Assembly (NCBI RefSeq): GCF_015356755.1
Contig: NZ_JADFCO010000064.1
Span: 310,001-374,000 of the forward strand
Source of the DNA: Nonlabens antarcticus
GTDB taxonomy: Bacteria > Bacteroidota > Bacteroidia > Flavobacteriales > Flavobacteriaceae
Reading direction: 5' to 3'
Length of the DNA: 64,000 nt
The number at the start of each line of letters is the position of its first letter. Within the stretch, counting starts at the first letter, position 1. Positions 1-60,184 of the stretch are shown here, in pieces. The notes under the pieces were generated by a model, which saw only the letters and a program-made list of their open reading frames with translations, searched no databases and was not told the DNA's origin. The position numbers and the translations under genes were made by a program.

Positions 1-1166
1 ACAAAGGAACATTAAGCGCTGTACGACCTGACGATCTTGCGGCACACGTTATTAAAACAATCGTTGAAAAACATCCTGAAATCCCACAAGAAGACTATGC
101 AGATGTGATCATGGGCTGTGCAAATCAGGCCGGAGAAGACAATCGCAATGTCGCGCGCATGGCTGGATTGCTGGCTGGATTGCCACCCACGGTTCCAGGA
201 GAAACGGTGAATCGGCTTTGTAGCTCTGGCCTGAGTTCTATAGTTCACGCGCATCGTGCGATACAAACAGGCGATGGCGATGTTTTTATCTCTGGAGGCT
301 TGGAAAATATGACTCGTGGGCCGCTGGTTATTGCAAAACCTAGCAGTGCTTTCGGGAACGATTCCAAGATGTATGATTCTAGTTTTGGCTGGAGATTTGT
401 CAACCAGAAAATGGCCGACTTATACGGTGTCGACGGAATGGGAACCACGGCGGAAAATCTGGTTTCTAAATATGATATTTCTCGCGAGGATCAGGACGCC
501 TTTGCAGCATGGTCACAACAAAAAGCAGCAGCAGCTCAAAAATCAGGAAGACTGTCTCAAGAAATTGTGCCGGTTGAGATTCCGCAGCGCAAGAAAGATC
601 CGATCATTTTTAAGGATGACGAATTCATCCGAGCAGGAACCACAGAAGAAATTTTAGCAAAACTACGTCCAGCCTTCAAAAAAGAAGGTGGTTCAGTTAC
701 CGCTGGAAACTCCAGTGGTCTTAATGATGGGGCAGCTGCAACCATTATTGCCAGCGAGGATGCCGTAAAAAAATACGGACTGAAGCCTATGGCTAGAATA
801 CTGAGTAGTGCGGTGGTAGGCGTAGAACCGAGAATCATGGGAATTGGACCCGTTGAAGCGAGCAATCGAGCCCTCAAAAAAGCAGGGTTAACAATTGCAG
901 ATATGGACGTGATAGAACTCAATGAGGCGTTTGCATCACAGGCACTGGCATGTATGAGGGAATGGGGACTTAAAGATAACGACCCGCGAGTGAACCCTAA
1001 CGGCGGTTCTATTGCCATAGGCCATCCACTAGGAATGACGGGAACCAGACTCGCTTATACGGCGGCTCTGGAGTTGTCGCTTTCGCGAAAGCGATATGCC
1101 TTAATTACTATGTGTGTAGGGGTAGGTCAAGGTTACGCCATGGTGATTGAAAATGCGCAATTATAA
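1..1166 (+). CDS. pcaF: 3-oxoadipyl-CoA/3-oxo-5,6-dehydrosuberyl-CoA thiolase, 5' end cut by the window
   Basis: Thiolase that cleaves 3-oxoadipyl-CoA into succinyl-CoA and acetyl-CoA, the last step of phenylacetate/beta-ketoadipate breakdown. The reading frame is already open at base 3 (KGTLSAVRPDDLAAHV), so the true start lies upstream of the window; the first internal ATG at 105 is not the start. Visible motifs are GCANQAGEDNRNVARM, which is characteristic of the PcaF/PaaJ branch, the nucleophilic Cys in NRLCSSG (codon 219-221), NEAFASQ, the GHPLGMTGTR histidine block and the second catalytic Cys in CVGVGQG. Residues missing from the N-terminus number only about 15-20. The downstream gene starts 15 nt later. 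paaZ and paaY, 11-16 kb away, support a phenylacetate role; a general acetyl-CoA acyltransferase is the alternative. Confidence 0.85.
   Translation, partial: KGTLSAVRPDDLAAHVIKTIVEKHPEIPQEDYADVIMGCANQAGEDNRNVARMAGLLAGLPPTVPGETVNRLCSSGLSSIVHAHRAIQTGDGDVFISGGLENMTRGPLVIAKPSSAFGNDSKMYDSSFGWRFVNQKMADLYGVDGMGTTAENLVSKYDISREDQDAFAAWSQQKAAAAQKSGRLSQEIVPVEIPQRKKDPIIFKDDEFIRAGTTEEILAKLRPAFKKEGGSVTAGNSSGLNDGAAATIIASEDAVKKYGLKPMARILSSAVVGVEPRIMGIGPVEASNRALKKAGLTIADMDVIELNEAFASQALACMREWGLKDNDPRVNPNGGSIAIGHPLGMTGTRLAYTAALELSLSRKRYALITMCVGVGQGYAMVIENAQL
1078..1093. repeat. iterated palindrome CGCTTTCGCGAAAGCG, perfect copy
   Basis: Inside the thiolase gene near its 3' end; read as S-L-S-R-K-R. Confidence 0.95.
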
Positions 1167-1181
1167 AAATTAAATATATTC

Positions 1182-3521
1182 ATGAAGTACGCTTACAAAT
1201 CGATCAAGGGTTGCCTTGTTATTTTAATGGTCTTTGGAGCGCTCCAATTTACGCAAGCTCAAAATGGCAAAAAGGAGATCGCTGACTCTTTCCAGGAGTT
1301 TAAAAGCGTACCTAAATCCAACATTTATCTACATGTCAACAAGTCGATTCTAGTCCAAGGAGAGGATTTGGGTTTTAGTGCATACGTGTTTGATCATGTG
1401 AATCAAATTCCATCAGCTGATGTGACTAATCTGTATTGTCAATTTTTAGATTCTACCAGTATAGTGATAAAAGAGAAGTTATTAAAGGTCGAGAATGGTA
1501 CTGCACACAATGTGTTTGCCATTGATTCTTTACTGGCGCCTGGCAACTATAGAATTCGCGCGTTTACTAACTGGATGAAGAATTTTGAAAATCCGCAATT
1601 TTTTGAGACTTCTATTAAAGTACTATCTGCTACCCAAAAGCAAAATAGATCTAGCGCAAAGATTACTTCACTTGATGTCCAAATCATGCCTGAAGGCGGT
1701 CATCTTGTGGCAGGTATTTTGACGAATGTAGGTGTTTCTATAAAAGATGAATATGGCCGCAGTGTTGATGGTCTTGAAATAACTGTTTTATCAAACGGCT
1801 CGCCCATAATGGGTGTAAAGCTAGATGGGAACGGCCATGGCAGATTTTCAATTAAACCTTTAAATGAAAACATTTATACCTTATCAGTAAGAAATAAGGA
1901 AGTCGTGACGGTGTATTCTTTTCCAAAAATTGATGAAACAGGAGTTGGCTTATCAGTAAATGAGATTAATAATAAATTGTTTGTCGAATTAAAATCAAAT
2001 GAGAAGACTCTTGCCAACTTAAGTAATCCAGCTTTTATTCTGGCTATTACAAATAATAATACGGTGCAATTGTATGATGCACTTTTAGATCAAACTAAAC
2101 TAACACTGTCCTTTAATACTTCAGATTTAAATGCAGGAGTCAATCAAATTACGTTGCTGACTGCAGATAAAAAAATAATAGCAGAAAGACTCTTTTTTAA
2201 TTATGATGGTTTTGAGTTAATGAAATCTGCCCAATTAATTATGAAAAGGGAACTGGATTCTGTTGAAACAAAAATTAATTTTTCAAAACTCAAAGATGCA
2301 CAGATCAGCATATCGGTGTTACCCGTTGAAACTATAGCGATAGATAAAACTCTAAGTATCGTTTCAAAATTTAAGCTGGAACCTTACATCAAGGGTTTTA
2401 TTCAGAATCCCCTGGAATATTTTGAATTTGTTGATAGACGCACTAAATACCAAATGGATAATCTCATGTTGTGTCAGGGATGGAACATGTACGATTGGGA
2501 TGAAATATTTAATGTGCCTAAAGATTACGTCTATAACTTTGAGCAGGGACTCATAGTAAAGGCCTTTCGGAACGGTTCTAAGGAGAATGAATTTATGATA
2601 CTTCCTGCCAGAAATACAAAGACAGCATTAATATCTATTGAAGAGGGAAAGGATTTTATTTTCGGACCATACTTTCCTTCTGAAGGAGAAAAACTAAAGA
2701 TAAGTGCACTTGACAAAAAGGGGAATGCATCAAAAACCAAAGTCTATCCCCAATTCACACCCAGCATAATTCCACAATTTAATTTTAAAAAGACCTTATT
2801 CCCTCTACAGATAGGTGATAAACTTGATGGGGTTCAGTTTAAACCGTTTAAGGATGATGTGGAAGAATTAGACCAGATTGTAATAGAAGTTAAAAAGGAA
2901 CAGGATCGAGTAGATCGTATTAAAAATACCGCAAGAGGACAGGTGGAAGTTTTTACAGATGCGGATAGAAGACGCTATTTTAACATTGATTCCTATTTGA
3001 CCCGGTTGGGCTTCACGGTGACTAATGTTAATGGAGTTTACCGTGTACGTAGTAGAAGAGCTATTGATAGAGGTGTCGACCCGCTCGTGGTGATTAATGG
3101 CGCCACTTATTTCGAACCGTCAATTCTATTTAATTTTCAAATGTTTGATGTTGATTATATAGAAATAGATTTTAGCGGTTTCAGCGAGTATGGTTCATCT
3201 AGGGGTGGCTTAATCAATATCAGGACTGATCCTAAATTAAACCCATACAATAGCAGATCCCAGACGTTTAGCAGTTATGATACTCCCTTATCTTTCTCTT
3301 TACCTTCAAAATTTTATAAGCCAGGTTATTATTTCTATAACGACAATTTTTTTAATAAACTGGGAGTAGTGGATTGGCAAGGTGCGCTTAAGGTTGAAAA
3401 TGGAACTACATCGTTTAAAATGCCTTATTATCTTAAGAATAAGCTCCTATTCCGCATTCAGGGAATGACATCAGATGGTACGTTAATCGATGAATACAAG
3501 ATAGGAGAAATGGCCAACTAA
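1182..3521 (+). CDS. secreted MG2-like protein with C-terminal TonB-plug-like domain
   Basis: The 779-residue product has an N-terminal signal peptide (hydrophobic stretch ending near FTQAQ, residue 26). Residues of about 45-145 (NIYLHVNKSILVQGEDLGFSAYV and PGNYRIRAFTNWM) resemble the MG2 macroglobulin-like domains seen in Bacteroidota envelope proteins. Near residues 630-690 the pattern PLVVINGATYF followed by DYIEIDFSGFSEYGSSRGGLINI resembles the plug domain of SusC-type TonB receptors, but no 22-strand barrel follows, so it is not a complete receptor. Function unknown; probably periplasmic or outer-membrane associated. It lies 15 nt after the thiolase gene and may be read through from it, without an obvious functional link. 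ATG at 1182 is the only start that keeps the signal peptide. Confidence 0.75.
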   Translation: MKYAYKSIKGCLVILMVFGALQFTQAQNGKKEIADSFQEFKSVPKSNIYLHVNKSILVQGEDLGFSAYVFDHVNQIPSADVTNLYCQFLDSTSIVIKEKLLKVENGTAHNVFAIDSLLAPGNYRIRAFTNWMKNFENPQFFETSIKVLSATQKQNRSSAKITSLDVQIMPEGGHLVAGILTNVGVSIKDEYGRSVDGLEITVLSNGSPIMGVKLDGNGHGRFSIKPLNENIYTLSVRNKEVVTVYSFPKIDETGVGLSVNEINNKLFVELKSNEKTLANLSNPAFILAITNNNTVQLYDALLDQTKLTLSFNTSDLNAGVNQITLLTADKKIIAERLFFNYDGFELMKSAQLIMKRELDSVETKINFSKLKDAQISISVLPVETIAIDKTLSIVSKFKLEPYIKGFIQNPLEYFEFVDRRTKYQMDNLMLCQGWNMYDWDEIFNVPKDYVYNFEQGLIVKAFRNGSKENEFMILPARNTKTALISIEEGKDFIFGPYFPSEGEKLKISALDKKGNASKTKVYPQFTPSIIPQFNFKKTLFPLQIGDKLDGVQFKPFKDDVEELDQIVIEVKKEQDRVDRIKNTARGQVEVFTDADRRRYFNIDSYLTRLGFTVTNVNGVYRVRSRRAIDRGVDPLVVINGATYFEPSILFNFQMFDVDYIEIDFSGFSEYGSSRGGLINIRTDPKLNPYNSRSQTFSSYDTPLSFSLPSKFYKPGYYFYNDNFFNKLGVVDWQGALKVENGTTSFKMPYYLKNKLLFRIQGMTSDGTLIDEYKIGEMAN

Positions 3522-3835: not shown

Positions 3836-5527
3836 TTAATTCACCTCAATAAAAAGGCCGCTATCGGTCTTTTTAACGGTAGCTACCTTTTTACCCGTCA
3901 ATCCCTTGACAGCTTTATCCCATTTCTTATTGGATAAACCACACTCTTCCTTCAGGACGTTAAGGTCCGCTTTTTCGTGTTTCTTTAAATGCTCAAAGAC
4001 GATTTTTTCATCCTCGTTCAATTCCACTCCGGCCTTTTTCTCTGGGCGCATTTGAGGGAAGAATAATACTTCTTGAATGGATGGGTTGTTCGTCAAAAAC
4101 ATGATCAATCGGTCCATTCCTATTCCCAATCCCGACGTGGGCGGCATTCCGTATTCCAGTGCTCGCAAGAAGTCCTGATCGATGAACATTGCCTCGTCGT
4201 CACCGCGGTCTGCGAGAGCTGCTTGTGTTTCAAATCGCTCGCGCTGGTCGATCGGGTCGTTCAACTCGCTATAGGCATTTGCGATTTCCTTCCCGCATAC
4301 CATCAGCTCAAATCGCTCTGTTAACTCTGGATTGTCGCGGTGCGTTTTACACAACGGGCTCATTTCTTTCGGGTAGTCCGTGATGAACGTGGGCTGGATG
4401 AATTTTCCTTCACATTTCTCTCCAAATATCTCGTCGATCAGTTTCCCTTTTCCCATGGATTTATCGACGTCGATGTTTTCCGCCTTCGCGAAAGCGAACA
4501 ATTCTTCCTCACTCTTGCCCGTAATGTCAAATCCTGTAAATTGAATGATCGCATCTGTCATTGTCACACGCGGGTAAGGTGCTTTCCATTCAATCTGGTG
4601 CTCTCCGAAGGTGCTGGAAGTTTTGCCATTCACCTGAACGGCACAGTATTCCAACAGGTTCTCTGTGAAATCCATCATCCAATTGTAATCCTTGTAGGAT
4701 ACATAAATTTCCATCGCAGTGAACTCTGGATTGTGCGTGCGATCCATCCCCTCATTACGGAAATTCTTGCTGAATTCGTACACGCCATCAAAACCACCCA
4801 CGATTAATCTCTTCAAATACAGTTCATTAGCAATCCGCATATATAATGGGATGTCGAGTGAGTTGTGATGTGTCATAAAAGGTTTTGCAGCTGCTCCACC
4901 AGGAATGGGTTGCAGAATGGGCGTTTCTACCTCAAAATATTCCCGATCATTAAAGAAGAAACGCATCGCGTTGAAAAGTTTGGTGCGTTTTACAAAAACC
5001 TCCTTAACCTTAGGATTGACCACAAGATCTGCATACCGCTGGCGGTAACGCATTTCTGGATCGTTGAACTCGTCATAAGTATTGCCATCGGCATCAGTTT
5101 TAGGTAATGGCAATGGTTTTAAAGCTTTGCTCAACAGCACAAAATTCTTAACCATCACAGTCTGTTCCCCCACTTGGGTCATGAACAACTCACCTTCGAT
5201 TCCTATAAAGTCACCTATATCCAGTAATTTCTTGTACAAGTCGTTATATAATGACTTGTCCTCGCCCGGACAAATTTCATCGCGATTGAAATAGACTTGG
5301 ATTTTCCCTTTTCCGTCCTGAATCTCGGCAAACGAGGCTTTGCCTTGTATTCTTCTGGACATCAAACGTCCCGCAATAACTACCTTTTTACCTTCTTTAA
5401 AGTCGGCTTTTATGGATGATGTCGTTGCGTCTAGATGATATTGAGCCGCAGGATAGGGATCAATTCCCATATCGCGGATTTTATCCAGTTTTTCACGGCG
5501 TATGATTTCTTGTTCAGAAAGTGGCAT
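3836..5527 (-). CDS. lysS: lysyl-tRNA synthetase, class II, with C-terminal extension
   Basis: Charges tRNA-Lys with lysine in the cytoplasm. The 563-residue product has an OB-fold anticodon-binding domain at about residues 45-150 (VVIAGRLMSRRIQGKASFAE), class II motif 2 (FRNEGMDRTHNPEFTAMEIY) and motif 3 (GLGIGMDRLIMFL). Typical bacterial LysRS is about 500 residues; the extra part after residue 505 (about 60 residues, rich in Lys/Glu, ending KKTDSGLFIEVN) looks like a small winged-helix-like appendix, which I believe is common in Bacteroidota LysRS. A TATCTTTG promoter element lies 22 nt upstream of ATG 5527. One copy of the genome-wide palindrome encodes the AFAKA segment around 4481. Confidence 0.96.
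   Translation of the reverse strand: MPLSEQEIIRREKLDKIRDMGIDPYPAAQYHLDATTSSIKADFKEGKKVVIAGRLMSRRIQGKASFAEIQDGKGKIQVYFNRDEICPGEDKSLYNDLYKKLLDIGDFIGIEGELFMTQVGEQTVMVKNFVLLSKALKPLPLPKTDADGNTYDEFNDPEMRYRQRYADLVVNPKVKEVFVKRTKLFNAMRFFFNDREYFEVETPILQPIPGGAAAKPFMTHHNSLDIPLYMRIANELYLKRLIVGGFDGVYEFSKNFRNEGMDRTHNPEFTAMEIYVSYKDYNWMMDFTENLLEYCAVQVNGKTSSTFGEHQIEWKAPYPRVTMTDAIIQFTGFDITGKSEEELFAFAKAENIDVDKSMGKGKLIDEIFGEKCEGKFIQPTFITDYPKEMSPLCKTHRDNPELTERFELMVCGKEIANAYSELNDPIDQRERFETQAALADRGDDEAMFIDQDFLRALEYGMPPTSGLGIGMDRLIMFLTNNPSIQEVLFFPQMRPEKKAGVELNEDEKIVFEHLKKHEKADLNVLKEECGLSNKKWDKAVKGLTGKKVATVKKTDSGLFIEVN
4481..4496. repeat. iterated palindrome, one mismatch
   Basis: CGCCTTCGCGAAAGCG on the plus strand; in lysS (minus) it is read as A-F-A-K-A. 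Confidence 0.9.
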
Positions 5528-7816: not shown

Positions 7817-8902
7817 ATGACATTGACACCCGACCAAATTAAAGAAGCCCTATCTGAACCAGAACTGGCCGCTCACCTCGCAGACCTCGTTTACATTCAC
7901 GATGAGTTGCTCACGATCCACAGAAAGAAACACGGTCGCGGTTTTACCTATCTGATTAATAACAAGGAAACCCTCAAGGATAAAGAGGAGCTCAAGCGCA
8001 TTAAGGCGCTCGTTATACCGCCGGGCTGGCAAAATGTGCGTATTTCTTCGCTCGCAAATGGCCATTTACAATCTGTCGGGCGTGACGATAAGGGCCGCAA
8101 GGTGTACCGGTATCATGACTTATGGAACATTCTGAGGAATCAAACTAAGTTTTTTAAAATGTCCGCTTTCGCGAAAGCGTTACCTAAGATAAGAAAACAA
8201 CTGGCCACAGATCTACAGTTGCCAGGAATGCCGCTCAACAAATGTCTGGCGATCGTATTGTCCGTCATGGACGTCACGCATGTACGCGTAGGCAATGAAT
8301 ATTATGCTAAAAAGAACAAAACCTACGGACTTTCCACTTTGCGAACCAAGCATTTAAAAGAATCTAATAATGGAATTTCGTTCAAGTTTAAAGGAAAAAA
8401 AGGGGTCGAGCAAAATACAGCAATCGATGATCCAGAACTGATCGCGTTGATCCATGAATGTGAAGACATTCCAGGCTGGGAATTATTCCAGTATTATGAT
8501 GAAGACGGCGATCATCACGGGATTGATAGCAGCATGATCAATAATTACATCCACGAGATAGGTGGAGAAATATTCACTGCCAAAGACTTCAGGACCTGGG
8601 GAGCAAGCACCGTATTTTTTGAAAAAATGATCGAGCTACCTAAGGCAACTACTAAAAAAGAGATCGACAAAACGATGCTGGAAGGTTATGACGCCGCTGC
8701 AGAAGAGCTGGGGAACACCAGAGCGGTTTGCCGTCAATATTACGTGCATCCAGAAATTCCGAATGTGTACAAAGAAGATGATTTTGACCGGTATCGTAAA
8801 AAGGTGAAATCCTATAGTGAGAAAAACTTAATGTCTCCTGCAGAACGCTGCGTCACTGAAATCATCAAGAATTTTGAGATTGAGTTTAAGTTGGAAGTTT
8901 AA
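7817..8902 (+). CDS. DNA topoisomerase IB (poxvirus-like)
   Basis: Relaxes supercoils by a 3'-phosphotyrosyl nick. The 361-residue product has the bacterial/poxviral TopIB layout: an N-terminal beta domain (IPPGWQNVRISSLANGHLQSVGRDDKGRKVYRYHD), then a catalytic domain with RVGNEYY and YGLSTLRTKHL carrying basic active-site residues, and the nucleophile in CRQYYVHP, most likely Tyr309. The start at 7817 gives a normal N-terminus. A perfect copy of the iterated palindrome encodes SAFAKA at about residues 116-121. Many flavobacteria carry this enzyme; its cellular role is not well defined. Confidence 0.93.
   Translation: MTLTPDQIKEALSEPELAAHLADLVYIHDELLTIHRKKHGRGFTYLINNKETLKDKEELKRIKALVIPPGWQNVRISSLANGHLQSVGRDDKGRKVYRYHDLWNILRNQTKFFKMSAFAKALPKIRKQLATDLQLPGMPLNKCLAIVLSVMDVTHVRVGNEYYAKKNKTYGLSTLRTKHLKESNNGISFKFKGKKGVEQNTAIDDPELIALIHECEDIPGWELFQYYDEDGDHHGIDSSMINNYIHEIGGEIFTAKDFRTWGASTVFFEKMIELPKATTKKEIDKTMLEGYDAAAEELGNTRAVCRQYYVHPEIPNVYKEDDFDRYRKKVKSYSEKNLMSPAERCVTEIIKNFEIEFKLEV
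8164..8179. repeat. iterated palindrome, perfect copy
   Basis: Within the topoisomerase IB gene; read as A-F-A-K-A. Confidence 0.95.
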
Positions 8903-11733: not shown

Positions 11734-12330
11734 CTATTGCTTGGGCAACAATCTAAAGGTTTTACGATGATGATCAGTCGCGCCATATTCTCGTATTGCA
11801 GCACGGTGTTCCTTTGTGGGATAACCTTGGTTTTTTAACCATTTGTACTGTGGGTAGTCTGTATCGAGCAACTCCATATATTCATCCCTATACGTTTTTG
11901 CAAGAATGGATGCCGCCGCAATATGCAGGTATTTTCCATCGCCTTTGATGATGGTAGTCGCGGGAATATCTGGATAGTCGTGAAACCTATTTCCATCGAC
12001 CGCAATATGCTCTGGGCGTATGGAAAGCCCATCAATAGCTTTGTGCATGGCAAGAATACTGGCATTTAAGATATTGATTTCATCAATTTTTTCTTGATAA
12101 ACATGCGCTACATGATAGCTCAAAGCTGCGTCTTCAATGACTTCCCTCAGATGATTTCTTCGCTTTCGCGAAAGCGTTTTACTATCGGTCAGTCCTGCAT
12201 AATTAAAACCTGGTGGTAGAATGACGGCTGCTGCAGTTACCGGCCCGGCGAGACACCCGCGACCAGCCTCGTCGGTACCGCACTCAATGAGATCAAAATT
12301 AATTTTTTCCAAAAGATCTTGCTGTGCCAT
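11734..12330 (-). CDS. rnhB: ribonuclease HII
   Basis: Removes ribonucleotides from RNA-DNA hybrids. The 198-residue protein shows the catalytic GTDEAGRGCLAGPV motif (Asp20, Glu21), HIAVDGNRF with the third acidic residue, and IIKGDGKYLHIAAASILAKTYRDEYM, all diagnostic of type 2 RNase H. A perfect palindrome copy encodes the LSRKR segment. The gene is divergent from paaZ across a 207-bp gap. Confidence 0.95.
   Translation of the reverse strand: MAQQDLLEKINFDLIECGTDEAGRGCLAGPVTAAAVILPPGFNYAGLTDSKTLSRKRRNHLREVIEDAALSYHVAHVYQEKIDEINILNASILAMHKAIDGLSIRPEHIAVDGNRFHDYPDIPATTIIKGDGKYLHIAAASILAKTYRDEYMELLDTDYPQYKWLKNQGYPTKEHRAAIREYGATDHHRKTFRLLPKQ
12161..12176. repeat. iterated palindrome, perfect copy
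   Basis: In rnhB; read on the minus strand as L-S-R-K-R. Confidence 0.95.
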
Positions 12331-12537: not shown

Positions 12538-15081
12538 ATGATCTTAAAAAGCTACATCAACGGGCAATGGCAGGCAGGACAACTCGATGGAAACGAGCGT
12601 TTCATGTGGGACGCCATTACCGGCGAGCAGATAGGAGCGACCTCTACCGCAAATCTTGATATCGCTGCGACCTTGCAATACGGTCGTGATCACGGTAAGG
12701 TTTTGCGAGAAATGACCTTCCAGCAACGCGGTAATATGATCAAAAAACTCGCGCTGTATCTGGAGAAACGCAAGGCAAAATTTTACGAAATTAGTTACAG
12801 AACCGGCGCTACTCGCGCTGACTCTTGGGTAGATATAGAAGGCGGTTTTGGAAATCTATTTGCAAATGCTAGCCTTAGAAAACTTTTTCCAGATCAATCT
12901 TATGCAGTGGAAGGCGATCCCATTGACCTTTCAAAAGGAGGCCGTTTTATGGCGCATCACATTCTCGTGCCACGGCGTGGTGTTGCGGTTCATATCAATG
13001 CTTTTAACTTTCCCGTCTGGGGAATGCTGGAGAAATGTGCGGTCAACTGGATGGCGGGAATGGCAGCTGTCGTTTTACCAGCACCACAAACGGCATTTTT
13101 GACAGAAGCCGTTGTACGCGAGATCATAGCCAGCGGTATTTTGCCGGAAGGTGCATTGCAATTATTGAGTGGACTGACCACAAACATATTAGATACCGTA
13201 AACTCCCAGGACGTAGTAACCTTCACCGGAAGCGCCGCCACTGGCAGAAAATTAAAATCCCACCCACGTTTATTGGAAGAATCGATACCATTTACAATGG
13301 AAGCGGATTCACTAAATTCTTCGGTATTGGGACCTGATGCGGTTCCAGGAACGGCAGAATTTGACATATTTATTAAGGAAGTCCGCAAGGAAATGACTTC
13401 TAAATCTGGTCAAAAATGTACTGCGATTCGTAGGGTTATTGTTCCAGAAAACCTGATGGAAGATGTTCAGATAGCCTTAGGCAAACAACTTTCCCAAACG
13501 GTAATCGGTGATCCCTTGTTGCGAGAAACTAGAATGGGTGCCATGATTAACGAAGATCAAAAAGCAGCGGTGAAAGAACAAATTAAGAAGATTTCCCAAA
13601 CGGCAGATATCGTTTATGGCGATCTTAACGAGGTAGAAATACATGGTGATCGCGCTCAAAAAGGCGCTTTTATGTCGCCTATTTTGATGCGTGAAAACGA
13701 GCCGTTTAAAAATACCCAAGTTCACGAGGTGGAATGCTTCGGCCCGGTCAGTACCTTGATGCCGTATAAAAATCTGGACGAGGCGATCGAGCTGGCTCAC
13801 ATGGGTAAGGGTTCTCTGGTGAGCAGTGTGGTTACTGGCGATGACGCTTTCGCTAAAGCGTACACCATCAACGCCGCATCATCACATGGGAGAATTCTAA
13901 CTTTGAACCGAGAATCTGCACCACAATCCACGGGTCACGGTGCGCCATTGCCATTGCTGGTTCATGGTGGCCCAGGACGTGCCGGAGGCGGAGAAGAAAT
14001 GGGCGGATTGCGCGGTATCAAACACTATTTACAGCGTTGTGCGGTGCAGGGAAGCCCAACATCATTGACAGAAATCACGGGAATTTATCAACCCAATGGC
14101 GCCTACAAAAACGCCGAAAAGCATCCGTTTGCCTATCATTATGAGGATATCAAGCCTGGAATGAGCCTAGAAACGCACAAAAGAACCCTAACCGATTCTG
14201 ACATCCAGAATTTTGCAAACCTGACTTGGGATCACTTTTATGCGCATACGGATATTACCAGCTTGGAAGGAAGCATTTTCAAAAAGCGTACTGTTCACGG
14301 TTATTTTATCATCAGTGCGGCGGCTGGATTATTCGTGTACCCTAATAAAGGACCAGTTTCGGCCAACTATGGATTAGAGGATATCAGATTCTTGCGACCG
14401 CTGTACCATAACGACACTATTTACGTGCGATTAACCTGTAAAGAAAAACGCGAACGTGACGTAAACGGTCGTGAGCACCCATCAGGAATTGTAAAATGGT
14501 ACGTAGAAGTTTTTGATGCAGAACCCGTCGATTATGAAAATGGTAAAACAGATGAAGAAGCAGAATCGCTGGTAGCCATTGCTACGATTTTAACGATGGT
14601 CGAGAAAAAGCAAAACGTTTTCCCAGAAATCACGGAAAAATATATCAAAAAAGCACTATCAAAACTGGAAAAGGACTCAAAACCACAATGGGGAACGATG
14701 ACACCACAACACATGGTCGAGCATTTAGAAATGAGTTACAGAATTGCCAGCGGCGAGATTCAAGATTTTGAAGTCGCTACACCAGAAGAGCATTTGGAAA
14801 AAGTAGCAACTACACTTTGGGATTATGATAAAATGCCACAGAATCACAAGATGCCATTGATGAAAAAAGACGGCACCCTGGAAGATTTAAAACATGAAGA
14901 TCTAGAAACAGCAAAAGCTAGGATGCTGGAAGCACGAGAAGAATATCTAGATTACTTCAAACGCAATCCGAAGTTGACGACTAAAAACGCTGTTTTTGGG
15001 GAGTTGAGTAAGTACGAGTGGAGCTTGCTAGAGCGGAAACATTTGAGTCATCATCTTGAACAGTTTAGCCTAAAAGACTAA
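12538..15081 (+). CDS. paaZ: PaaZ oxepin-CoA hydrolase / 3-oxo-5,6-dehydrosuberyl-CoA semialdehyde dehydrogenase fused to a DUF1569-like domain
   Basis: Opens the oxepin-CoA ring and oxidises the resulting aldehyde in phenylacetate catabolism. Residues 1-510 form the aldehyde dehydrogenase with Glu255 (TMEADS) and nucleophile Cys294 (SGQKCTAIRR), close to Glu256 and Cys295 of E. coli PaaZ. Residues of about 530-690 form the MaoC-type hydratase with Asp565 and His570 in LTWDHFYAH. E. coli PaaZ ends near 681; here about 150 more residues follow, with HMVEH (His725, His729) and KHLSHHLEQF (His835, His838, His839), the pattern of DinB-like DUF1569 proteins. A degenerate palindrome copy encodes AFAKA at 13845. 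The stop codon lies in a 13-bp hairpin. Downstream crotonase and paaY support the pathway. Confidence 0.93.
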   Translation: MILKSYINGQWQAGQLDGNERFMWDAITGEQIGATSTANLDIAATLQYGRDHGKVLREMTFQQRGNMIKKLALYLEKRKAKFYEISYRTGATRADSWVDIEGGFGNLFANASLRKLFPDQSYAVEGDPIDLSKGGRFMAHHILVPRRGVAVHINAFNFPVWGMLEKCAVNWMAGMAAVVLPAPQTAFLTEAVVREIIASGILPEGALQLLSGLTTNILDTVNSQDVVTFTGSAATGRKLKSHPRLLEESIPFTMEADSLNSSVLGPDAVPGTAEFDIFIKEVRKEMTSKSGQKCTAIRRVIVPENLMEDVQIALGKQLSQTVIGDPLLRETRMGAMINEDQKAAVKEQIKKISQTADIVYGDLNEVEIHGDRAQKGAFMSPILMRENEPFKNTQVHEVECFGPVSTLMPYKNLDEAIELAHMGKGSLVSSVVTGDDAFAKAYTINAASSHGRILTLNRESAPQSTGHGAPLPLLVHGGPGRAGGGEEMGGLRGIKHYLQRCAVQGSPTSLTEITGIYQPNGAYKNAEKHPFAYHYEDIKPGMSLETHKRTLTDSDIQNFANLTWDHFYAHTDITSLEGSIFKKRTVHGYFIISAAAGLFVYPNKGPVSANYGLEDIRFLRPLYHNDTIYVRLTCKEKRERDVNGREHPSGIVKWYVEVFDAEPVDYENGKTDEEAESLVAIATILTMVEKKQNVFPEITEKYIKKALSKLEKDSKPQWGTMTPQHMVEHLEMSYRIASGEIQDFEVATPEEHLEKVATTLWDYDKMPQNHKMPLMKKDGTLEDLKHEDLETAKARMLEAREEYLDYFKRNPKLTTKNAVFGELSKYEWSLLERKHLSHHLEQFSLKD
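13845..13860. repeat. iterated palindrome, one mismatch
   Basis: CGCTTTCGCTAAAGCG in paaZ; read as A-F-A-K-A. Confidence 0.85.
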
Positions 15082-20580: not shown

Positions 20581-20588
20581 TATCTTTG
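20581..20588 (+). promoter_or_regulatory. E1 gene promoter -7 element TATCTTTG
   Basis: Exact TAnnTTTG. It overlaps the GTG at 20588, which argues for ATG 20594 as the translation start, 5 nt after the element. Confidence 0.6.
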
Positions 20589-20593
20589 TGAAC

Positions 20594-26869: not shown

Positions 26870-26885
26870 CGTTTTCGCGAAAGCG
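26870..26885. repeat. iterated palindrome, one mismatch
   Basis: CGTTTTCGCGAAAGCG, intergenic, between the receptor-like gene and osmC. Confidence 0.85.
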
Positions 26886-36711: not shown

Positions 36712-36727
36712 CGCTTTCGCGAAAGCG
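36712..36727. repeat. iterated palindrome, perfect copy
   Basis: Intergenic, 3 nt after the hemL stop. Confidence 0.95.
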
Positions 36728-49055: not shown

Positions 49056-49853
49056 ATGAAGATAAAAGATGCCTTTCAGGTCAACAAACAAACTTGGAAT
49101 CAGAAAACTGCTATTCATTATGAAAGTGAATTTTATGATAAGTCCGCTTTCGCGAAAGCGAAAAACTCTCTAAAACCCTACGAACTGAAAGCATTGGGAG
49201 ATGTAATTGGGAAAAGTTTGCTGCATTTGCAATGCCATTTTGGTCAAGACAGTTTAAGTTGGGCTCATAAGGGAGCTGTTGTTACGGCTGTAGATTTTAG
49301 TGAATCAGCGATTGATCAGGCAAGACAGCTAAGTATGGAATTAGAAATTCCTGCAAACTTCTTGTGTTGCAATGTGTTAGATGTTTCAAACCATATCACC
49401 GACACCTTTGATATAATTTTTACCAGTTACGGAGTTATATGCTGGTTGCCAGACTTAAAGCCATGGGCTCAAATGATTGCAAGGCGACTCAAAAAAGAAG
49501 GTATTTTTTATATGGTAGAATTTCATCCTATCGCCTGGATGTTCGATTATAACGCAGAGTCACCACTTATGAAATTTTCATATGCACTTAAAGACCGTAT
49601 ATATGAAGAGTATCGCGGCACGTATGCAGATGAGAATGCAGCAATCACTAGCAAGGAATACAGCTGGAATCACTCCTTAAGTGAGGTTATCCAATCACTG
49701 ATTGATGCAGGATTGCAAATCGAATACTTTGCAGAACATGATGAAAGTCCGTACCGCATTTTTCCAGAAATGGAAGCTGTGAGCGATATGTATGTACTCA
49801 AGCACAAATTATATCCTACTATTTTTGAGCTGAAAGCAAAGCAGTTGCTATAA
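49056..49853 (+). CDS. class I SAM-dependent methyltransferase
   Basis: A 265-residue methyltransferase. SAM-binding motif I is SLLHLQCHFGQDSLSWA, then VVTAVDFSESAIDQAR (acidic ribose-binding residue), FLCCNVLDV and FDIIFTSYGVICWLPDLKPWAQMIARRLKKEGIFYMVEFHP. The substrate is not evident. A perfect palindrome encodes SAFAKAK close to the N-terminus (residues 31-37), in a loop before the Rossmann core. Confidence 0.9.
   Translation: MKIKDAFQVNKQTWNQKTAIHYESEFYDKSAFAKAKNSLKPYELKALGDVIGKSLLHLQCHFGQDSLSWAHKGAVVTAVDFSESAIDQARQLSMELEIPANFLCCNVLDVSNHITDTFDIIFTSYGVICWLPDLKPWAQMIARRLKKEGIFYMVEFHPIAWMFDYNAESPLMKFSYALKDRIYEEYRGTYADENAAITSKEYSWNHSLSEVIQSLIDAGLQIEYFAEHDESPYRIFPEMEAVSDMYVLKHKLYPTIFELKAKQLL
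49145..49160. repeat. iterated palindrome, perfect copy
   Basis: In the methyltransferase gene; read as A-F-A-K-A. Confidence 0.95.
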
Positions 49854-52280: not shown

Positions 52281-52296
52281 CGCTTTCGCGAAAGCG
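52281..52296. repeat. iterated palindrome, perfect copy
   Basis: Intergenic, 8 nt beyond the stop of the FecA-like receptor gene. Confidence 0.95.
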
Positions 52297-52304: not shown

Positions 52305-54731
52305 TTAAATTTTGATCTCTAAAGTGACATAATAATTGCGACCGGGAGAAGGGATGATCCCAGGACCAGGGTAACCAGTTGCGCGTCTCGTGAAGTAAGC
52401 GTTGTCCAAAGCATTATTAATTCCAGCTTCTAACTTGTAATTTTTGTACTTGTAGGAAGTAGAAAAATCAAGAATATCATAACTGGGAATAGCACCTATG
52501 ACACCGCTTTGGTTTCCCTCTGTGGCATTAGTAGCATCTGTGAATTGCTGGCCCAGGTAGCTGTACTGTATGCTGGATAAAAAGTTTTTGTAACCAAATG
52601 TGAGTCCGGTTTTAAAGTTCAATTCAGGAACAAATTCTACCTCGCTTCCCTCAACGCCGTTTTCATCAGATCTCGTATATTCAGACTGTATGAAAGATGT
52701 ATTTAGGAAAAAGTTGAAGTTATAATCATTGTTTTTGATAAATAGTTTGTTCAAATTAAAATCGAAAAGCGACTCCACACCGTATATCACCGCATCGCCT
52801 ACATTAGTTCTTAAAATTTTTGCGTTTCCATCAGGCGTTGCCTCGACAACAAACCCGATGCGATCATTATAAAACAATCCAAACACGTTTGCATCGTAAG
52901 AAATGAAATCATTAAAATTCCCACGTAGTCCTAGATCTGTCGTGAATCCTTTTTCGTCAGCAATATCAGGATCAATGCTAAAAGCAGGGTTTACCGTACT
53001 TATATCGGCAAATGTAACTGACCGGTAGTTTTGGGAAATATTTCCATAAATTTCAATGCCGTTTGCTGGTTTGTAACTGGTTCCCAAACCTAACAATACA
53101 AATGAACGCTCGTTCACGGCATCTTCCCTTACTCGTTCACTGAGGATTACGTTCCCAGCTGCATCAGTATTAATACGTTGGAAATAGCCGTCACTTTCTG
53201 TTTTGATGTATTCCAGTCTAAATCCTGGTGTAATACTTAATTTGTCATTTAAATAAAAAATATTCTCCCCAAATACGGACAGATTCGTATTCGGGTAATC
53301 AAATCTATTTTGGGTAGTGAAATTCGGAAAACGGTCGTTTTGGAAATCAAAGTTGGGATTAGTTCCATCAGATCCGGGCCCTTGTTCACTGGAGTTGGTT
53401 GCCCGATAATATTTTGAACCTATCAAAAAAGTAGCATCTCGTTTACCAATGGTATATTCAGAAACCAACCTCGTTTCAAAGCCGTAATTATTAAAGTTCC
53501 CATCTATTAAATCTCGTGGACCACCTGGATCTACTTGACTTACTCTATTAGAACGAAACCCTAATGACTTTCTAGAAGCATCGAGACCGAAAGCACTGAA
53601 CGAGAAGTTTGTATTTTCAGAAAATTCATGATCCAGACGAATGTTATATAGAAGCCAGTCCACTTTAAACCAGTTGCGCTCGCGATTGCTTTGGTAGGGA
53701 TCTGCATTGAATTGACCATCAGTTAAACCACCGGCCTGTTGAGCGAGATATCTTAGGTAAGTAAGTTCTCCAGAAATCTTAGTCTTTTCATTGAATTGGT
53801 ATCCTACGTGGCCATAAAAGTTCTTACTCTCAAACTGAGAATTAGGCCTAAAACCGTCCCCTTTTTTGTAATTGAAGAAAGTGTAGTAACTCCACTTTCC
53901 AGCTGTGCCGCTGGCACTGGTGAAATTAGTATAGAGGTTATTGCTTCCTAGTGTATTTCTGGTTATAAACTCAAAAGGCTTATTTTTTTCCGGTTCTTTC
54001 ATTACAAAATTAATCAACCCACCGAATTGCGTTCCATATTGTAGGGAAGCAGCGCCACGTATCACTTGGATTTCCTTTAAGCCTTCAGAAGCTGGTGAGT
54101 AGTAACTTTCAGGATACCCTAGAACATCTGCACTAATATCATAACCGTTCTGACGGGTGTTGAAGTTTGCGGTACGGTTAGGATCCAGACCGCGACCACC
54201 TATATTTAATTGTAGCCCTGCATCATCATTTTGAAATATATTGAGTCCCGATACCTGATTGTAAATCTGTCTTGCATTGTTAGTAGCTAGGTTTGCAGTA
54301 GAGTTTTCCAAAAGGATAACCTCTGTTTTTTTTCCTGCATAGATGGCAGTTCCTTCCACATCTTTCAAGCGTTTAAGGTTAAAAACTTGTTGCTTTCTAA
54401 CGTTGATCTGGACTGCGGTAAGCGTCTCTGCGAGATTAGAAAGTTGGAAATTAACTGTGGTGTTTTGAGTAACCGGAATTGTTTTTTCCAGTACTTCATA
54501 TTCATAATCAAACACTACCATACTCAATTCAGATTCAGCGGTAGAGAAAGAGAACTCACCTTGTTCATCAGTTTTTGCAAGTATAGCCTTGTCTTTTTGA
54601 TAGATACTGGCTTGAGCAATGGGAAGTCTTGTAATTGCATCAGTTACTTTTCCTGTTACTATATTTTGAGCGGAAGCAGCAATAGAAATTAAAACAAAAA
54701 GTAAGAATAATTTATAATCCTTGAATATCAT
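52305..54731 (-). CDS. TonB-dependent receptor, FecA-like
   Basis: Outer-membrane receptor, probably for an iron chelate. The 808-residue product has a signal peptide (LFLLFVLISIAASAQ), a carboxypeptidase-like domain (NIVTGKVTDAITRLPIAQASIYQKD to about 95), a plug (NARQIYNQVSGLNIFQNDDAGLQLNIGGRGLDPNRTANFNTRQNG split into strands, then EIQVIRGAASLQYGTQFGGLINF) and a barrel ending PGRNYYVTLEIKI. GGRGLDPNRTANF and ADVLGYPESYYSPASEGL are FecA-type. ATG 54731 gives a signal peptide and overlaps the upstream HTTM gene by 20 nt. Last gene of the iron-type cluster. Confidence 0.92.
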   Translation of the reverse strand: MIFKDYKLFLLFVLISIAASAQNIVTGKVTDAITRLPIAQASIYQKDKAILAKTDEQGEFSFSTAESELSMVVFDYEYEVLEKTIPVTQNTTVNFQLSNLAETLTAVQINVRKQQVFNLKRLKDVEGTAIYAGKKTEVILLENSTANLATNNARQIYNQVSGLNIFQNDDAGLQLNIGGRGLDPNRTANFNTRQNGYDISADVLGYPESYYSPASEGLKEIQVIRGAASLQYGTQFGGLINFVMKEPEKNKPFEFITRNTLGSNNLYTNFTSASGTAGKWSYYTFFNYKKGDGFRPNSQFESKNFYGHVGYQFNEKTKISGELTYLRYLAQQAGGLTDGQFNADPYQSNRERNWFKVDWLLYNIRLDHEFSENTNFSFSAFGLDASRKSLGFRSNRVSQVDPGGPRDLIDGNFNNYGFETRLVSEYTIGKRDATFLIGSKYYRATNSSEQGPGSDGTNPNFDFQNDRFPNFTTQNRFDYPNTNLSVFGENIFYLNDKLSITPGFRLEYIKTESDGYFQRINTDAAGNVILSERVREDAVNERSFVLLGLGTSYKPANGIEIYGNISQNYRSVTFADISTVNPAFSIDPDIADEKGFTTDLGLRGNFNDFISYDANVFGLFYNDRIGFVVEATPDGNAKILRTNVGDAVIYGVESLFDFNLNKLFIKNNDYNFNFFLNTSFIQSEYTRSDENGVEGSEVEFVPELNFKTGLTFGYKNFLSSIQYSYLGQQFTDATNATEGNQSGVIGAIPSYDILDFSTSYKYKNYKLEAGINNALDNAYFTRRATGYPGPGIIPSPGRNYYVTLEIKI

Positions 54732-56067
54732 CGTTGAAGGGTAAGATCCAGTCTTTATGCTGGAATGATTCATTTATAGAGTACAAGTCAATTGATTTAT
54801 CAATATAAGGCTGACTTAACCTTCCATTGAGAGCTACATAACTTTCTGCAAACACCTGAACATTTTGATGTCCTTGTGCTGTAAAGTGATCGCCTAGATA
54901 ATGTGCATATTGCAAGATGAAATCTGGCTGGAAGCTCATTTGTTTTTCTTGATATGAAGTGAGGAAGTCTGTGTTATCAACTACAAAACTAGCGCCAGTA
55001 TCACCATCCACGATTCTGTATTGAGTATAGCCCATTTTTTCCATAAGCATTACCCGCCAGGAAAAACGATAGCCTTCTTCTGTCCAGAAAAGTTCATCTG
55101 GATACAGGCTGTAACGCCATGGCAATAATAATTGAATAACAAAAAATAAGGATAGTACTGGTAGAATGATGAAGGGTCTTCTCACTCTGTAATTCTGGCT
55201 GATGATTATTTTTTTGATTTTATATGCTGGTGGTTTCAAAAACCTATTGAGAATTCTTAAAATTCTTTTATGAAATGCGGCATCAAAAAAGATCAGACAG
55301 CTTACAATCATTACTAATGGGAATACTCCTATGGGAAACAACATTCTTGTTAACACGTGAAAAACAACCGCCAGAATAAAACCTAATGTTCTCGTTTTTC
55401 TGTACAATAAAAGAAAAGGAATACTTAAATCATAGAGCATTCCTGACCAGCTCATCACATAAGGAATCCATTCTAATTGCATGAGATTTCCCAACAAGGG
55501 CAAGTCATATTTTGAGGGCAACCAAATCTTCAATGGCATCGCACGCAACAACCAGTCAGAGTTTAGTTTTGCTAGTCCTGCATAAAAGTACACGATGCAT
55601 AAGAGCAGTTTGATGCTATCTGTGGTCCAGCGAGGTACAAACTTGTACGCTTTCGCGGAAGCGTAATTATCTAACGCATAATACTTATTTGCTGGTAAAA
55701 AAATCATCAAGAAACTCAATACACTCACGAAGTAATAATGATTGAGGTAAGTGGTTTTATCCATCAACTCGATGTACGTAAAGCTTAAAAAAAACATTAT
55801 AATCGCTATCCTATATTTGAATCCTAAAGCGACAAAAAGCGCAGAAAGTCCACATATCGCATATAAAATATAGGTGTAATTGCCTAAAGGTTGGATCCAT
55901 TCAAAGCCATAATAGGAAAAATGAAATTTGGGATCAATGTATAAAGTCTTTATCCAGCCGTTGAGCCAAAACCGAACCACGCTAAAAACCATCATCAAAC
56001 CGAAACCAATGCGAAATACCGCAAGCGGTGCACTGGAAACATTTTTATTGAAATAGTTGTGGAACAT
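54712..56067 (-). CDS. vitamin-K-dependent gamma-carboxylase-like (HTTM domain) membrane protein
   Basis: A 451-residue multi-helix inner-membrane protein homologous to the carboxylase domain of vertebrate GGCX. Two functional positions look conserved: His110 in DKTTYLNHYYF (human His160 region) and Lys167 in YFYAGLAKLNSDWL (human Lys218 region). A C-terminal soluble part (MLMEKMGYTQYRIVDGDTGASFVVDN) follows the helices. Its gene overlaps that of the FecA-like receptor, and an imelysin gene precedes it, so a role in iron acquisition is likely; which protein it modifies, if any, is unknown. Palindrome copy with one mismatch encodes YASAKAY. Confidence 0.85.
   Translation of the reverse strand: MFHNYFNKNVSSAPLAVFRIGFGLMMVFSVVRFWLNGWIKTLYIDPKFHFSYYGFEWIQPLGNYTYILYAICGLSALFVALGFKYRIAIIMFFLSFTYIELMDKTTYLNHYYFVSVLSFLMIFLPANKYYALDNYASAKAYKFVPRWTTDSIKLLLCIVYFYAGLAKLNSDWLLRAMPLKIWLPSKYDLPLLGNLMQLEWIPYVMSWSGMLYDLSIPFLLLYRKTRTLGFILAVVFHVLTRMLFPIGVFPLVMIVSCLIFFDAAFHKRILRILNRFLKPPAYKIKKIIISQNYRVRRPFIILPVLSLFFVIQLLLPWRYSLYPDELFWTEEGYRFSWRVMLMEKMGYTQYRIVDGDTGASFVVDNTDFLTSYQEKQMSFQPDFILQYAHYLGDHFTAQGHQNVQVFAESYVALNGRLSQPYIDKSIDLYSINESFQHKDWILPFNDDIQGL
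55648..55663. repeat. iterated palindrome, one mismatch
   Basis: CGCTTTCGCGGAAGCG in the HTTM gene; minus-strand reading A-S-A-K-A, the Phe changed to Ser. Confidence 0.85.
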
Positions 56068-58629: not shown

Positions 58630-58642
58630 AATAATAAGTTGA

Positions 58643-58650: not shown

Positions 58651-58655
58651 ATGCC

Positions 58656-58764: not shown

Positions 58765-60072
58765 TTAGAATTGTGAGGCGTCCTTCATAGTTTGTTCAAT
58801 GCAATCACCTAGTGAAACTCCATTGATATAGTTTCCCAATATTTTAAAATTGGGACATCTCGATTCCCAAAGTTGGATTTCCTTGAGCCAGTCGCTATGA
58901 CCTGAGCTTTTTTGAGGTATCGCTTTTTTCCAATATTTTGAATGGATAAGTTCTAAATCACCATCGATGCCGGTCCATTTTCTAAATAAAGGGATGCACA
59001 GTTTTTTAAAGATTTTCTTAGCATCTTTCTTTTTACAGTTATCTGGACGCACAAAGAAATTTATTAATGCTTTATCGCCGTTCACTGCTGTAGAAAAAGT
59101 ATTCCCATTATACATTACACCTATAAAATCCTTGCGCTCAAAAGAAGAGGCTAGAAAGCCAAAACCTTTTGTCTTTTTCTGCAATTCCTTAAGGTTGACT
59201 TGAACTTGTAGCGTGAGCATTGGATTGTAAGCTATTTTCCGTTCTGGAAAATGATCTTGTTTAAGAACTTTTTTGAGAGCATAATAAGGTAACGTAGAAA
59301 TCACTTTTCCTGCCTTTATCTTAGTTCCGCTTTTTAATTTAATTTCCCAGTGATGACCAAATTGTTTAATGGATTTTATGGGAGAATTTAAATGAATATC
59401 AGATTCCAGCTTTCGCGAAAGCGAACTGGTCAAGGTTTCCACACCATTTTTGAAGCTCACTATTTTGCGTGAGGCAGAAGGTGACTTTTTTAAACCTTTA
59501 AGAAGGCTCCCGTATTCTTTTTCAAGCTCTACAAACCGTGGAAAAACAGAGGCTATCTCCAGGTTTGCAGCATCACCTGCATAAATACCACTAACAATGG
59601 CACCGGCCATGCGCGTTGCTACTTCCTTTCCAAAACGCCTTGTGAAAAAATCCAATACACTTTCTCCATCTGGAGAAACGCTCTTAATAAAGGGTTCCTT
59701 AAGAATGCGCAGTTTTGCACTAGAGGAAATCAATCCTGTATTTATTAGAGTTAAGGGCGACGCTTTTAGAGTATGCAATTGATCATTCCACAAAATCTGG
59801 CGGATTTTACTCTCCTCCATCGCTGGAACAATATCATCTATAATTCCCAGTTCGCCACATAATTTCTCTACCGCTGGAGTCATTACCAGGCTGTTTGCAC
59901 CGTGCTCCACGAGCAAACCATTGATAAACTCAGACTTGATCACACCACCCGCACGAGAATCTGCTTCAAGAATGACAAAGTCAGTATTTTGTTTGTGTAG
60001 TTGATAGCCCGCACTAAGTCCAGAAAGCCCTGCACCTAGAACAATGTATTCGTAAAACTCCTTGATAACCAT
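58765..60072 (-). CDS. hemY: protoporphyrinogen oxidase (HemY type)
   Basis: FAD enzyme that oxidises protoporphyrinogen IX late in heme synthesis. The 435-residue protein starts with the FAD motif EYIVLGAGLSGLSAGYQL, followed by VILEADSRAGGVIKS, VEHGANSL, AGAIVSGIYAGDAANLEI and a C-terminal FKILGNYINGVSLGDCIEQ, where GVSLGDCI is the conserved FAD/active-site end. Length fits HemY. A palindrome copy encodes SLSRKLE. hemL at 35.4 kb is part of the same pathway. Confidence 0.93.
   Translation of the reverse strand: MVIKEFYEYIVLGAGLSGLSAGYQLHKQNTDFVILEADSRAGGVIKSEFINGLLVEHGANSLVMTPAVEKLCGELGIIDDIVPAMEESKIRQILWNDQLHTLKASPLTLINTGLISSSAKLRILKEPFIKSVSPDGESVLDFFTRRFGKEVATRMAGAIVSGIYAGDAANLEIASVFPRFVELEKEYGSLLKGLKKSPSASRKIVSFKNGVETLTSSLSRKLESDIHLNSPIKSIKQFGHHWEIKLKSGTKIKAGKVISTLPYYALKKVLKQDHFPERKIAYNPMLTLQVQVNLKELQKKTKGFGFLASSFERKDFIGVMYNGNTFSTAVNGDKALINFFVRPDNCKKKDAKKIFKKLCIPLFRKWTGIDGDLELIHSKYWKKAIPQKSSGHSDWLKEIQLWESRCPNFKILGNYINGVSLGDCIEQTMKDASQF
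59408..59423. repeat. iterated palindrome, one mismatch
   Basis: AGCTTTCGCGAAAGCG in hemY; minus-strand reading L-S-R-K. Confidence 0.88.
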
Positions 60073-60168
60073 AATTCAAAGGTACTAAACCTAAGTTTTG
60101 ATATAGATGCACAGGTGGCTCTTGTATTATAAATATTCTTTAAAAAATAATAGTTTTAAATGGGAGTT

Positions 60169-60184
60169 CGCTTTCGCGAAAGCG
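60169..60184. repeat. iterated palindrome, perfect copy
   Basis: Intergenic, in the divergent region between hemY and the peptidyl-prolyl isomerase gene. Confidence 0.95.

Follow-up and report, generated by a model that had tools for sequence, protein, structure and literature searches.

Noc, SlmA, MatP and ParB act at sites that are dyads of 12–16 bp, are read by homodimers and occur many times per chromosome. Chi (RecBCD/AddAB) occurs about once per 4–5 kb and is absent from some phages. HIP1 and the alternate HIPs of cyanobacteria are described as genome-iterated, taxon-specific palindromes whose outermost bases are least fixed (PMC4390886), and the DNA uptake sequences USS and DUS as present in hundreds of exact copies, evenly spaced and often within genes, with AT-rich flanks and differences between lineages (PMC1939737). 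The features given for Chi, HIP1 and USS/DUS recur in a 16-bp palindrome of Nonlabens antarcticus, analysed here in a 64,000-nucleotide stretch of DNA (the window) and in other genomes.

A pattern search of the window recovered all 12 perfect and eight one-mismatch copies listed in a first-pass annotation, each at the position given there (Table 1), plus a further match with two mismatches at 36443, which is perhaps a decayed or partial copy. In 100 dinucleotide shuffles of the window, the mean number of matches at ≤2 mismatches was 0.02 and the maximum was 1. According to the ORF list, 14 of the 20 copies lie within long ORFs and six lie between ORFs. The 19 gaps have a coefficient of variation (CV) of 0.37.

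Table 1. Copies of the 16-bp palindrome in the window and the ORFs that contain or adjoin them
Positions	Form	Location	Remark
1078–1093	exact	within thiolase ORF 105–1166	
4481–4496	one mismatch (CGCCTTCGCGAAAGCG)	within class-II tRNA synthetase ORF 3836–5527	
8164–8179	exact	within topoisomerase IB ORF 7817–8902	
12161–12176	exact	within RNase HII ORF 11734–12330	
13845–13860	one mismatch	within aldehyde dehydrogenase/MaoC ORF 12538–15081	orthologous copies exist
17029–17044	exact	within hexapeptide-transferase ORF 16816–17421	
21598–21613	exact	within 2-oxoacid dehydrogenase E1 ORF 20588–22759	
26870–26885	one mismatch	between ORFs	
28864–28879	one mismatch (last base T)	within ORF 28500–30854	
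32890–32905	one mismatch (last base A)	between ORFs	
34371–34386	one mismatch (first base A)	within PALP-family ORF 33618–34577	
36443–36458	two mismatches	within aminotransferase ORF 35416–36708	
36712–36727	exact	directly past aminotransferase ORF 35416–36708	
41051–41066	exact	between ORFs	
43465–43480	exact	within TonB-dependent receptor ORF 41174–43603	
45385–45400	exact	within photolyase-related ORF 44717–46270	
49145–49160	exact	within SAM-methyltransferase-domain ORF 49056–49853	
52281–52296	exact	between ORFs	
55648–55663	one mismatch	within HTTM/gamma-carboxylase-like ORF 54712–56067	
59408–59423	one mismatch (first base A)	within amine oxidoreductase ORF 58765–60072	
60169–60184	exact	between ORFs	

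The motif is neither confined to this segment nor present at near-chance levels, as the genome of the window holds 480 exact copies (667 at ≤1 mismatch) and a reversed control pattern has none. Counting across related genera, as the annotation had proposed, shows a motif that is genome-wide but clade-specific. All 23 Nonlabens genomes searched carry it, with 180–737 copies per genome and about 290–860 cores per genome across the genus. Outside Nonlabens, the carriers are Dokdonia sinensis and genome G396; all remaining genomes in our samples of the order (196 genomes), family (299) and phylum (395) contain ≤27 copies, and most contain none. The clade includes cultured strains. In the open-access literature searched, we found neither the 16-mer nor Nonlabens and Dokdonia in connection with palindromes.

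Seven low-count genomes, out of 64 non-carriers with a match, were examined in regions picked for holding copies; there the motif lies largely in metal-efflux islands and has apparently been transferred. Island copies in the apparently transferred genes sit at a signal-peptide-like N terminus. G290, G491 and G265 have 21–27 copies at ≤1 mismatch, and no copy was seen in the sampled 100 kb of G491 or 60 kb of G290. The motif may serve to show which lineage donated a transferred metal-efflux island. Samples of 60–100 kb from six non-carrier genomes yielded no comparable palindrome of 10–16 bp, except in G407, where TTTTGGCCAAAA/TTGGCCAA palindromes occur. Repeats in G315 were rejected as a dialect of the motif, as they form a long array of near-identical units. 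In the 70.7 kb of two isolated Nonlabens phages, nothing matches the motif at ≤3 mismatches. The motif does occur on a few contigs that encode a phage terminase, portal, head or tape-measure protein; these contigs were found through the motif itself.

The site is a dyad with core GCTTTCGCGAAAGC and a preference for C and G at its outer ends. Its flanks are T-rich and A-rich, giving an extended form of about TTTCGCTTTCGCGAAAGCGAAA, and flank positions hold at most 0.74 bit. A REP/MITE or insertion repeat was rejected on these grounds, no longer repeated element surrounding the palindrome. Sites in G200 show a mismatch spectrum close to all-or-none (92 exact copies, 15 with one mismatch, 3 with two and 4 with three). 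Deviations from the motif concentrate at the outermost bases. The outer base varies by lineage, exact copies making up 255 of 634 cores in G201 and 653 of 728 in G200. Where both outer bases have changed, 6 of 12 pairs are complementary, a proportion consistent with a protein reading half-sites in the duplex, not with a hairpin. The 16-mer is predicted to fold into a 6-bp stem (−4.3 kcal/mol, equalled by 52 of 200 shuffles) and the extended 22-mer reaches −7.6 kcal/mol (equalled by 15 of 200). Given the shuffles that fold as well as the 16-mer and the lack of clear compensation at the outer bases, hairpin function was rejected. Outside masked full copies (451,934 bases), no sub-word of 6–10 bp is notably enriched, with a mild excess for two 7-mers (29 versus 20–22). 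The enriched unit is the whole 14–16 bp dyad.

The ortholog, flank and divergence comparisons are partly non-independent, one orthologous site being seen from several genomes; with this limit, divergence within the genus is 0.04 in the 16 bases and jumps at the edges of the motif, reaching 0.25 at 20–60 bp (569 pairs), and 78% of 555 ungapped ortholog comparisons show an exact copy (58 of 613 were gapped and set aside), versus 4.7% for random 16-mers in slightly less similar DNA (flank identity 75.3 versus 77.8%). The centre TCGCGA had been thought the best-conserved part, but per-position divergence is 0.01–0.03 for TTT/AAA, 0.04–0.06 for CGCG and 0.08 for the outermost C/G. Among 10 congeners compared at the copy at 17029–17044, two have ≤1 mismatch and eight have 4–9 mismatches.

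The copy in the E1 gene occupies the same codons in all 21 Nonlabens genomes compared and in D. sinensis, and is missing from all 26 other genomes compared, these being the non-carriers among the 30 best-matching E1 loci. It lies in a variable linker of the enzyme. None of the 26 shows a gap across the 40 aligned bases, suggesting that this copy probably arose by substitution. Comparisons of Dokdonia against Nonlabens gave no shared copy in six cases (5 of 71 query sites had a partner, identity was low and two were gapped), and the reverse gave none in two. When Nonlabens copies were compared with non-carrier stretches, the motif was found in 9 of 21, a figure that is no measure of chromosomal sharing because the set included most of the metal-efflux-island stretches.

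A tree of E1 without G396 places D. sinensis as the sister of the genus (SH-aLRT 93). A tree of six concatenated proteins unites D. sinensis with G396 (100/99) and adds the non-carrier G378 to the pair (84/74); a branch separating the six carriers appeared in 0 of 200 bootstrap trees. Since the carriers do not fall on one branch, inheritance of one system is unsupported by the tree. One or two origins, or transfer, are possible histories for the motif on these sequence comparisons.

Along the chromosome, the density is about one copy per 3–5 kb. In the single-contig chromosome of G200, each of 20 evenly placed 20-kb stretches contains 2–9 copies, with no ori/ter pattern visible by eye. The 106 gaps from these stretches and the window have a CV of 0.47, compared to 0.90 at random and 0.69 in the lowest of 2000 shuffles. 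Gaps below 1 kb are scarce in D. sinensis (2% observed, 17% expected; 87 exact copies) and in G196 (5% observed, 20% expected; 94 cores). One caveat here is that the regularity is not absolute, as the overall gap CV is 0.92 in G196 and 0.80 in D. sinensis, and G196 has motif-free stretches of 16–30 kb. Based on a simple ORF caller, 85 of 127 copies (67%) in the G200 stretches and the window are inside ORFs. The earlier view that copies sit in unrelated genes and in gaps, look like neither promoters nor terminators and are not bound to one element is borne out. A Rho-independent terminator was rejected on the fraction inside ORFs and on flanks that are T-rich before and A-rich after.

Near-unchanged copies inside unrelated genes imply that some protein probably reads the motif, and we are fairly confident that it reads the full dyad. 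The best overall explanation, to which we assign a probability of roughly 0.38, is that the copies are dense docking sites of a candidate homodimeric protein, whose likeliest use would be chromosome organisation. A single clade-specific homodimer that binds double-stranded DNA would read the whole site, and selection would act on site density along the chromosome, not on single sites. Under such selection, copies would keep their positions among congeners, change them from one genus to the next and seldom lie close together. By analogy with the sites of Noc, SlmA or MatP, which are far sparser, we tentatively suggest a nucleoid-organising or segregation protein as the one that docks. The chances seem evenly balanced that the motif is a clade-specific homodimer docking array, a 14–16 bp dyad every ~3–5 kb, imposed on hundreds of unrelated genes, with an outer-base preference that would drift between lineages, changing many sites at once.

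Even spacing, the all-or-none spectrum, conserved orthologous copies and the sharp divergence step favour the docking reading. To our knowledge, no nucleoid site is this dense. The reading is weakened by the searches of ParB paralogues and parAB neighbourhoods, which yielded no candidate reader. ParB gave one strong match per genome in 20 genomes (167–175 bits). Three of the 10 carriers and two of the 10 non-carriers had further matches, and no paralogue tracked the motif. Nor did the 20-kb parAB neighbourhoods contain a gene common to all six carriers and lacking in all six non-carriers compared, leaving a ParB/Noc-type reader unsupported. A LexA operator was also rejected, as the Bacteroidetes LexA operators described in PMC8565304 differ from the motif. 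The motif's presence on some phage contigs would not be predicted from a role in chromosome structure alone. Chromosome organisation and DNA uptake remain the leading candidates.

The spacing, the gene/intergene split and the T-rich flanks resemble DNA uptake sequences too. By analogy with Haemophilus USS and Neisseria DUS, motif-bearing DNA would be preferred in natural transformation, and recombination would restore perfect copies (molecular drive). We judge this somewhat unlikely, although exact over-representation genome-wide and even spacing are consistent with it, two isolated phages lack the motif and the lineage-specific outer base is reminiscent of DUS dialects. For comparison with the 67% of copies in genes, the published figure is 65% in H. 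influenzae and 35% in N. gonorrhoeae, and the T-rich flanks bring to mind the T-tracts in the consensus of Haemophilus (PMC1939737). Transformation in Riemerella columbina is described as showing self-preference and is compared there with other Flavobacteriaceae (PMC7965970). However, the USS and DUS treated in PMC1939737 are non-palindromic, whereas the motif is a perfect dyad, which suggests a soluble dimer. Partial copies also seem rarer than drive alone would be expected to yield. We know of no competence reports for Nonlabens or Dokdonia, 'natural competence' is absent from the open-access literature matches listed, and the motif's density is about a quarter of USS density.

An improbable alternative is a marker of self versus non-self or of recombination, akin to Chi or linked to defence, at which a DNA-attacking or DNA-processing enzyme would be stopped or redirected, the chromosome carrying the motif and some phages not. 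The spacing is close to that of Chi in E. coli, where one site occurs about every 4.6 kb, and the phage genomes free of copies fit such a role. Mimicry would predict the few phage-gene contigs with the motif, but their carriage may only reflect prophage life, the contigs having been found via the motif. Chi sites are moreover short and asymmetric, and we have no candidate enzyme.

The first-pass annotation named HIP1 as the closest analogue, which is fair as to kind: both are palindromic and genome-wide, and deviations fall at the outermost bases, as Elhai describes for HIP1 (PMC4390886). An origin as a by-product of a resident DNA methyltransferase plus biased mismatch repair is unsupported, and we consider it very improbable. 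Methylases read short sites, and the lack of an enriched shorter word argues against a HIP1-type methylation core. The C5 methylase domain (PF00145) is found in 5 of 10 non-carriers, and 5 of 10 carriers, the genome of the window among them, lack it, so a C5 methylase was rejected as universal reader. The motif's density is also below the one per kb predicted by the HIP1 model. Scarcely credible is a dispersed selfish micro-palindrome kept by chance in intergenic DNA and in protein linkers that tolerate it, which would suit the variable E1 linker, the signal-peptide-like N termini of transferred genes and the other small palindromes found at similar places, but which is already weakened by conservation and is opposed by sharp constraint, even spacing, the absence of a common flank beyond a weak AT bias and the ungapped E1 site in non-carriers, with its probable origin by substitution.

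Hundreds of exact 16-mers fixed in unrelated coding genes represent a strong constraint on the genome and imply a strong function. If one of the leading readings is true, the motif would be a palindromic DNA uptake signal, the first of its kind, or else the densest site-specific chromosome-organising system known in bacteria. Its role would bear on the old question of why some bacteria keep evenly spaced genome-wide signals.

Set against HIP1 as described in PMC4390886, the motif is longer (16 bp versus 5–8 bp), sparser (one per 3–5 kb versus about one per kb) and found in another phylum. Unlike HIP1, it has neither a notably enriched inner core nor a consistent C5 methylase. Unlike USS and DUS, it is a perfect dyad with few partial copies, and its density is lower than that of those sequences. 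Chi is short and directional, whereas the motif is symmetric and 16 bp long. Sites of Noc, SlmA, MatP and ParB number in the tens or are regional, whereas the motif is spread chromosome-wide, with ~290–860 cores per genome.

The first-pass annotation had listed 20 copies of the 16-bp dyad CGCTTTCGCGAAAGCG in the window. We recovered all of them (12 exact and 8 with one mismatch), along with one extra copy carrying two mismatches; the chance level in shuffled window sequence was 0.02 matches. The iteration extends genome-wide, with 480 exact copies in the window's genome, 611 copies of the inner 14-mer and 667 motif copies when up to one mismatch is allowed. A reversed control pattern gave 0 matches in the same genome.

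The motif is the mark of a narrow group. All 23 Nonlabens genomes carry it, with 180–737 exact copies and 288–857 copies of the 14-mer per genome. Sampling 299 genomes of the family, we saw at least one copy (≤1 mismatch) in 69, but only five genomes exceeded 100: three Nonlabens (667, 629 and 708), Dokdonia sinensis (879) and G396 (377), the sole genome of its genus in our comparison, which contains 408 copies of the 14-mer. The next highest counts were 27, 21, 21, 12 and 10. At the order level, 8 of 196 genomes had an exact copy, including the window's own, the other seven holding 1–2 each; at the phylum level, the 14-mer was found in 22 of 395 genomes, with a maximum of 6 outside the window's own. 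Among the matches listed in a scan of named genomes (80 stretches), 31 came from Nonlabens (BBFL7 included), 36 from Dokdonia and the remaining 13 from other, scattered organisms. Ten of these 31 Nonlabens stretches could be aligned with sequence of the analysed genomes, at 66–76% identity; this agrees with the average of 73–75% within the genus, although values for Dokdonia stretches were similar.

Each of twenty stretches spread over the single-contig chromosome of genome G200 holds 2–9 copies. In these stretches and the window, 85 of 127 sites lie in ORFs, 46 of them using the reading frame xxC GCT TTC GCG AAA GCG (encoding AFAKA), and 42 sites are not wholly within one ORF, versus 10.7 expected. 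Gaps in this set average 3.4 kb (n = 106), with a CV of 0.47 compared to 0.90 for random placement. Short gaps are depleted as well in D. sinensis and G196, where the overall gap CV (0.80 and 0.92, respectively) is raised by long motif-poor stretches. One motif-poor region of G196 (C4, 298–353 kb; L324, L325 and L328) contains two pairs of very large, similar-sized ORFs, of about 1800 and 1550 aa.

Individual copies are conserved in place. Using 102 exact copies as queries in 40-kb regions around the 2-oxoacid dehydrogenase E1 gene of 11 genomes, we obtained 613 orthologous comparisons, of which 58 were gapped and 555 kept. Orthologues of the motif were exact in 78% of the ungapped comparisons and one off in 15%, versus 4.7% and 8.8% for random 16-mers, and divergence was 0.04 within the motif versus 0.25 at a distance of 20–60 bp (569 pairs). 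The E1 copy itself (window 21598) occupies identical codons in 21 of 21 Nonlabens genomes (19 exact, 2 one off), a set that leaves out two drafts lacking a full E1 match. D. sinensis has an exact copy at the same codons, and 26 other genomes compared show 4–13 mismatches there. The other inter-genus comparisons, few in number, revealed no copy in common. Residues about 138–178 of the E1 ORF (window 21000–21125; ORF 20588–22759) are dropped from alignments of many relatives; the enzyme is otherwise conserved, and its length varies between species. At some sites, a roughly palindromic insert of 19–21 bp lies near the motif centre, after CGCTTTC.

Orthologous sites with an insert near the motif centre
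Feature	Site in G209	Orthologue with insert
CTGCCTGCCGGCAGGCA-type insert	20594	G196
CTGCCTGCCGGCAGGCA-type insert	28529	G196 and G203

Across 142 sites, many of them orthologous, motif positions 2–15 are almost invariant, and the outer C..G is less strict. The 5′ flank is rich in T and the 3′ flank in A; no longer repeat was found in these flanks. We masked 137 copies in 452 kb and found no sub-word of 6–10 bp notably above Markov expectation; two 7-mers were mildly in excess (29 versus 20–22 expected). The enriched unit is therefore the complete dyad. Its outer base differs between lineages: exact 16-mers account for 653 of 728 14-mers (90%) in G200 and 255 of 634 (40%) in G201. Outer-base frequencies are C 0.66, A 0.22 and T 0.12 in G201 (16 sites) and C 0.50, T 0.27, G 0.19 and A 0.04 in G396 (13 sites), and G201 forms such as AGCTTTCGCGAAAGCT occupy orthologous sites where other genomes retain C..G. 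These differences fit a putative reader whose edge preference would have drifted or relaxed.

Low-count copies outside the clade look transferred. In seven such genomes, most copies lie in metal-efflux islands encoding Cus/Czc-like transporters, a Fur-like regulator and a metal ATPase (assigned by reading the sequences, without a family search), and inter-copy spacings, e.g. 933 bp, are common to islands of different genera. The 35 copies in these genomes comprise 21 exact, 12 one-mismatch and 2 two-mismatch forms, and hence copies may decay once outside the clade; the sample (seven genomes) is small and the islands are related.

Two isolated Nonlabens phages (70.7 kb) contain no copy, even allowing three mismatches. 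IMG/VR yielded 41 motif-bearing stretches from 30 contigs; these contigs were selected by motif presence, making motif density there a biased estimate, and some are GC-rich, so that a single chance hit in them is likely. Of six protein-scanned stretches, four contain phage terminase, portal, head or tape-measure genes and two gave no such match. Motif-bearing contigs with such genes include L028, L039, L041 and L055, the last with copies spaced 4480 and 5054 bp.

A second small inverted repeat, NTCCGCCTACGCGGAN (loop CTAC), recurs in L252, L255, L260, L274, L097, L113 and L110, its arms varying between copies in a compensatory manner (e.g. CTCTGC..GCAGAG). It is found at the E1 linker codons used by the motif in the window in three non-carriers of three genera (G467, G458 and G302). 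In G407 (L240–L242), which belongs to a different genus, 60 kb contain 19 copies of TTGGCCAA versus 0.9 expected, about one copy per 3.2 kb; this may be a further iterated palindrome.

As for the reader, in ten carriers and ten non-carriers no ParB paralogue follows the motif, and no C5 methylase is universal among the carriers. In the parAB neighbourhood of six carriers and six non-carriers, no gene was common to all carriers and missing from non-carriers. From the dyad, the motif length and the nearly all-or-none mismatch spectrum, we infer that a putative homodimeric protein reads the motif on duplex DNA. Among candidate tasks, we place chromosome organisation slightly ahead of DNA uptake, with a role as self marker third.
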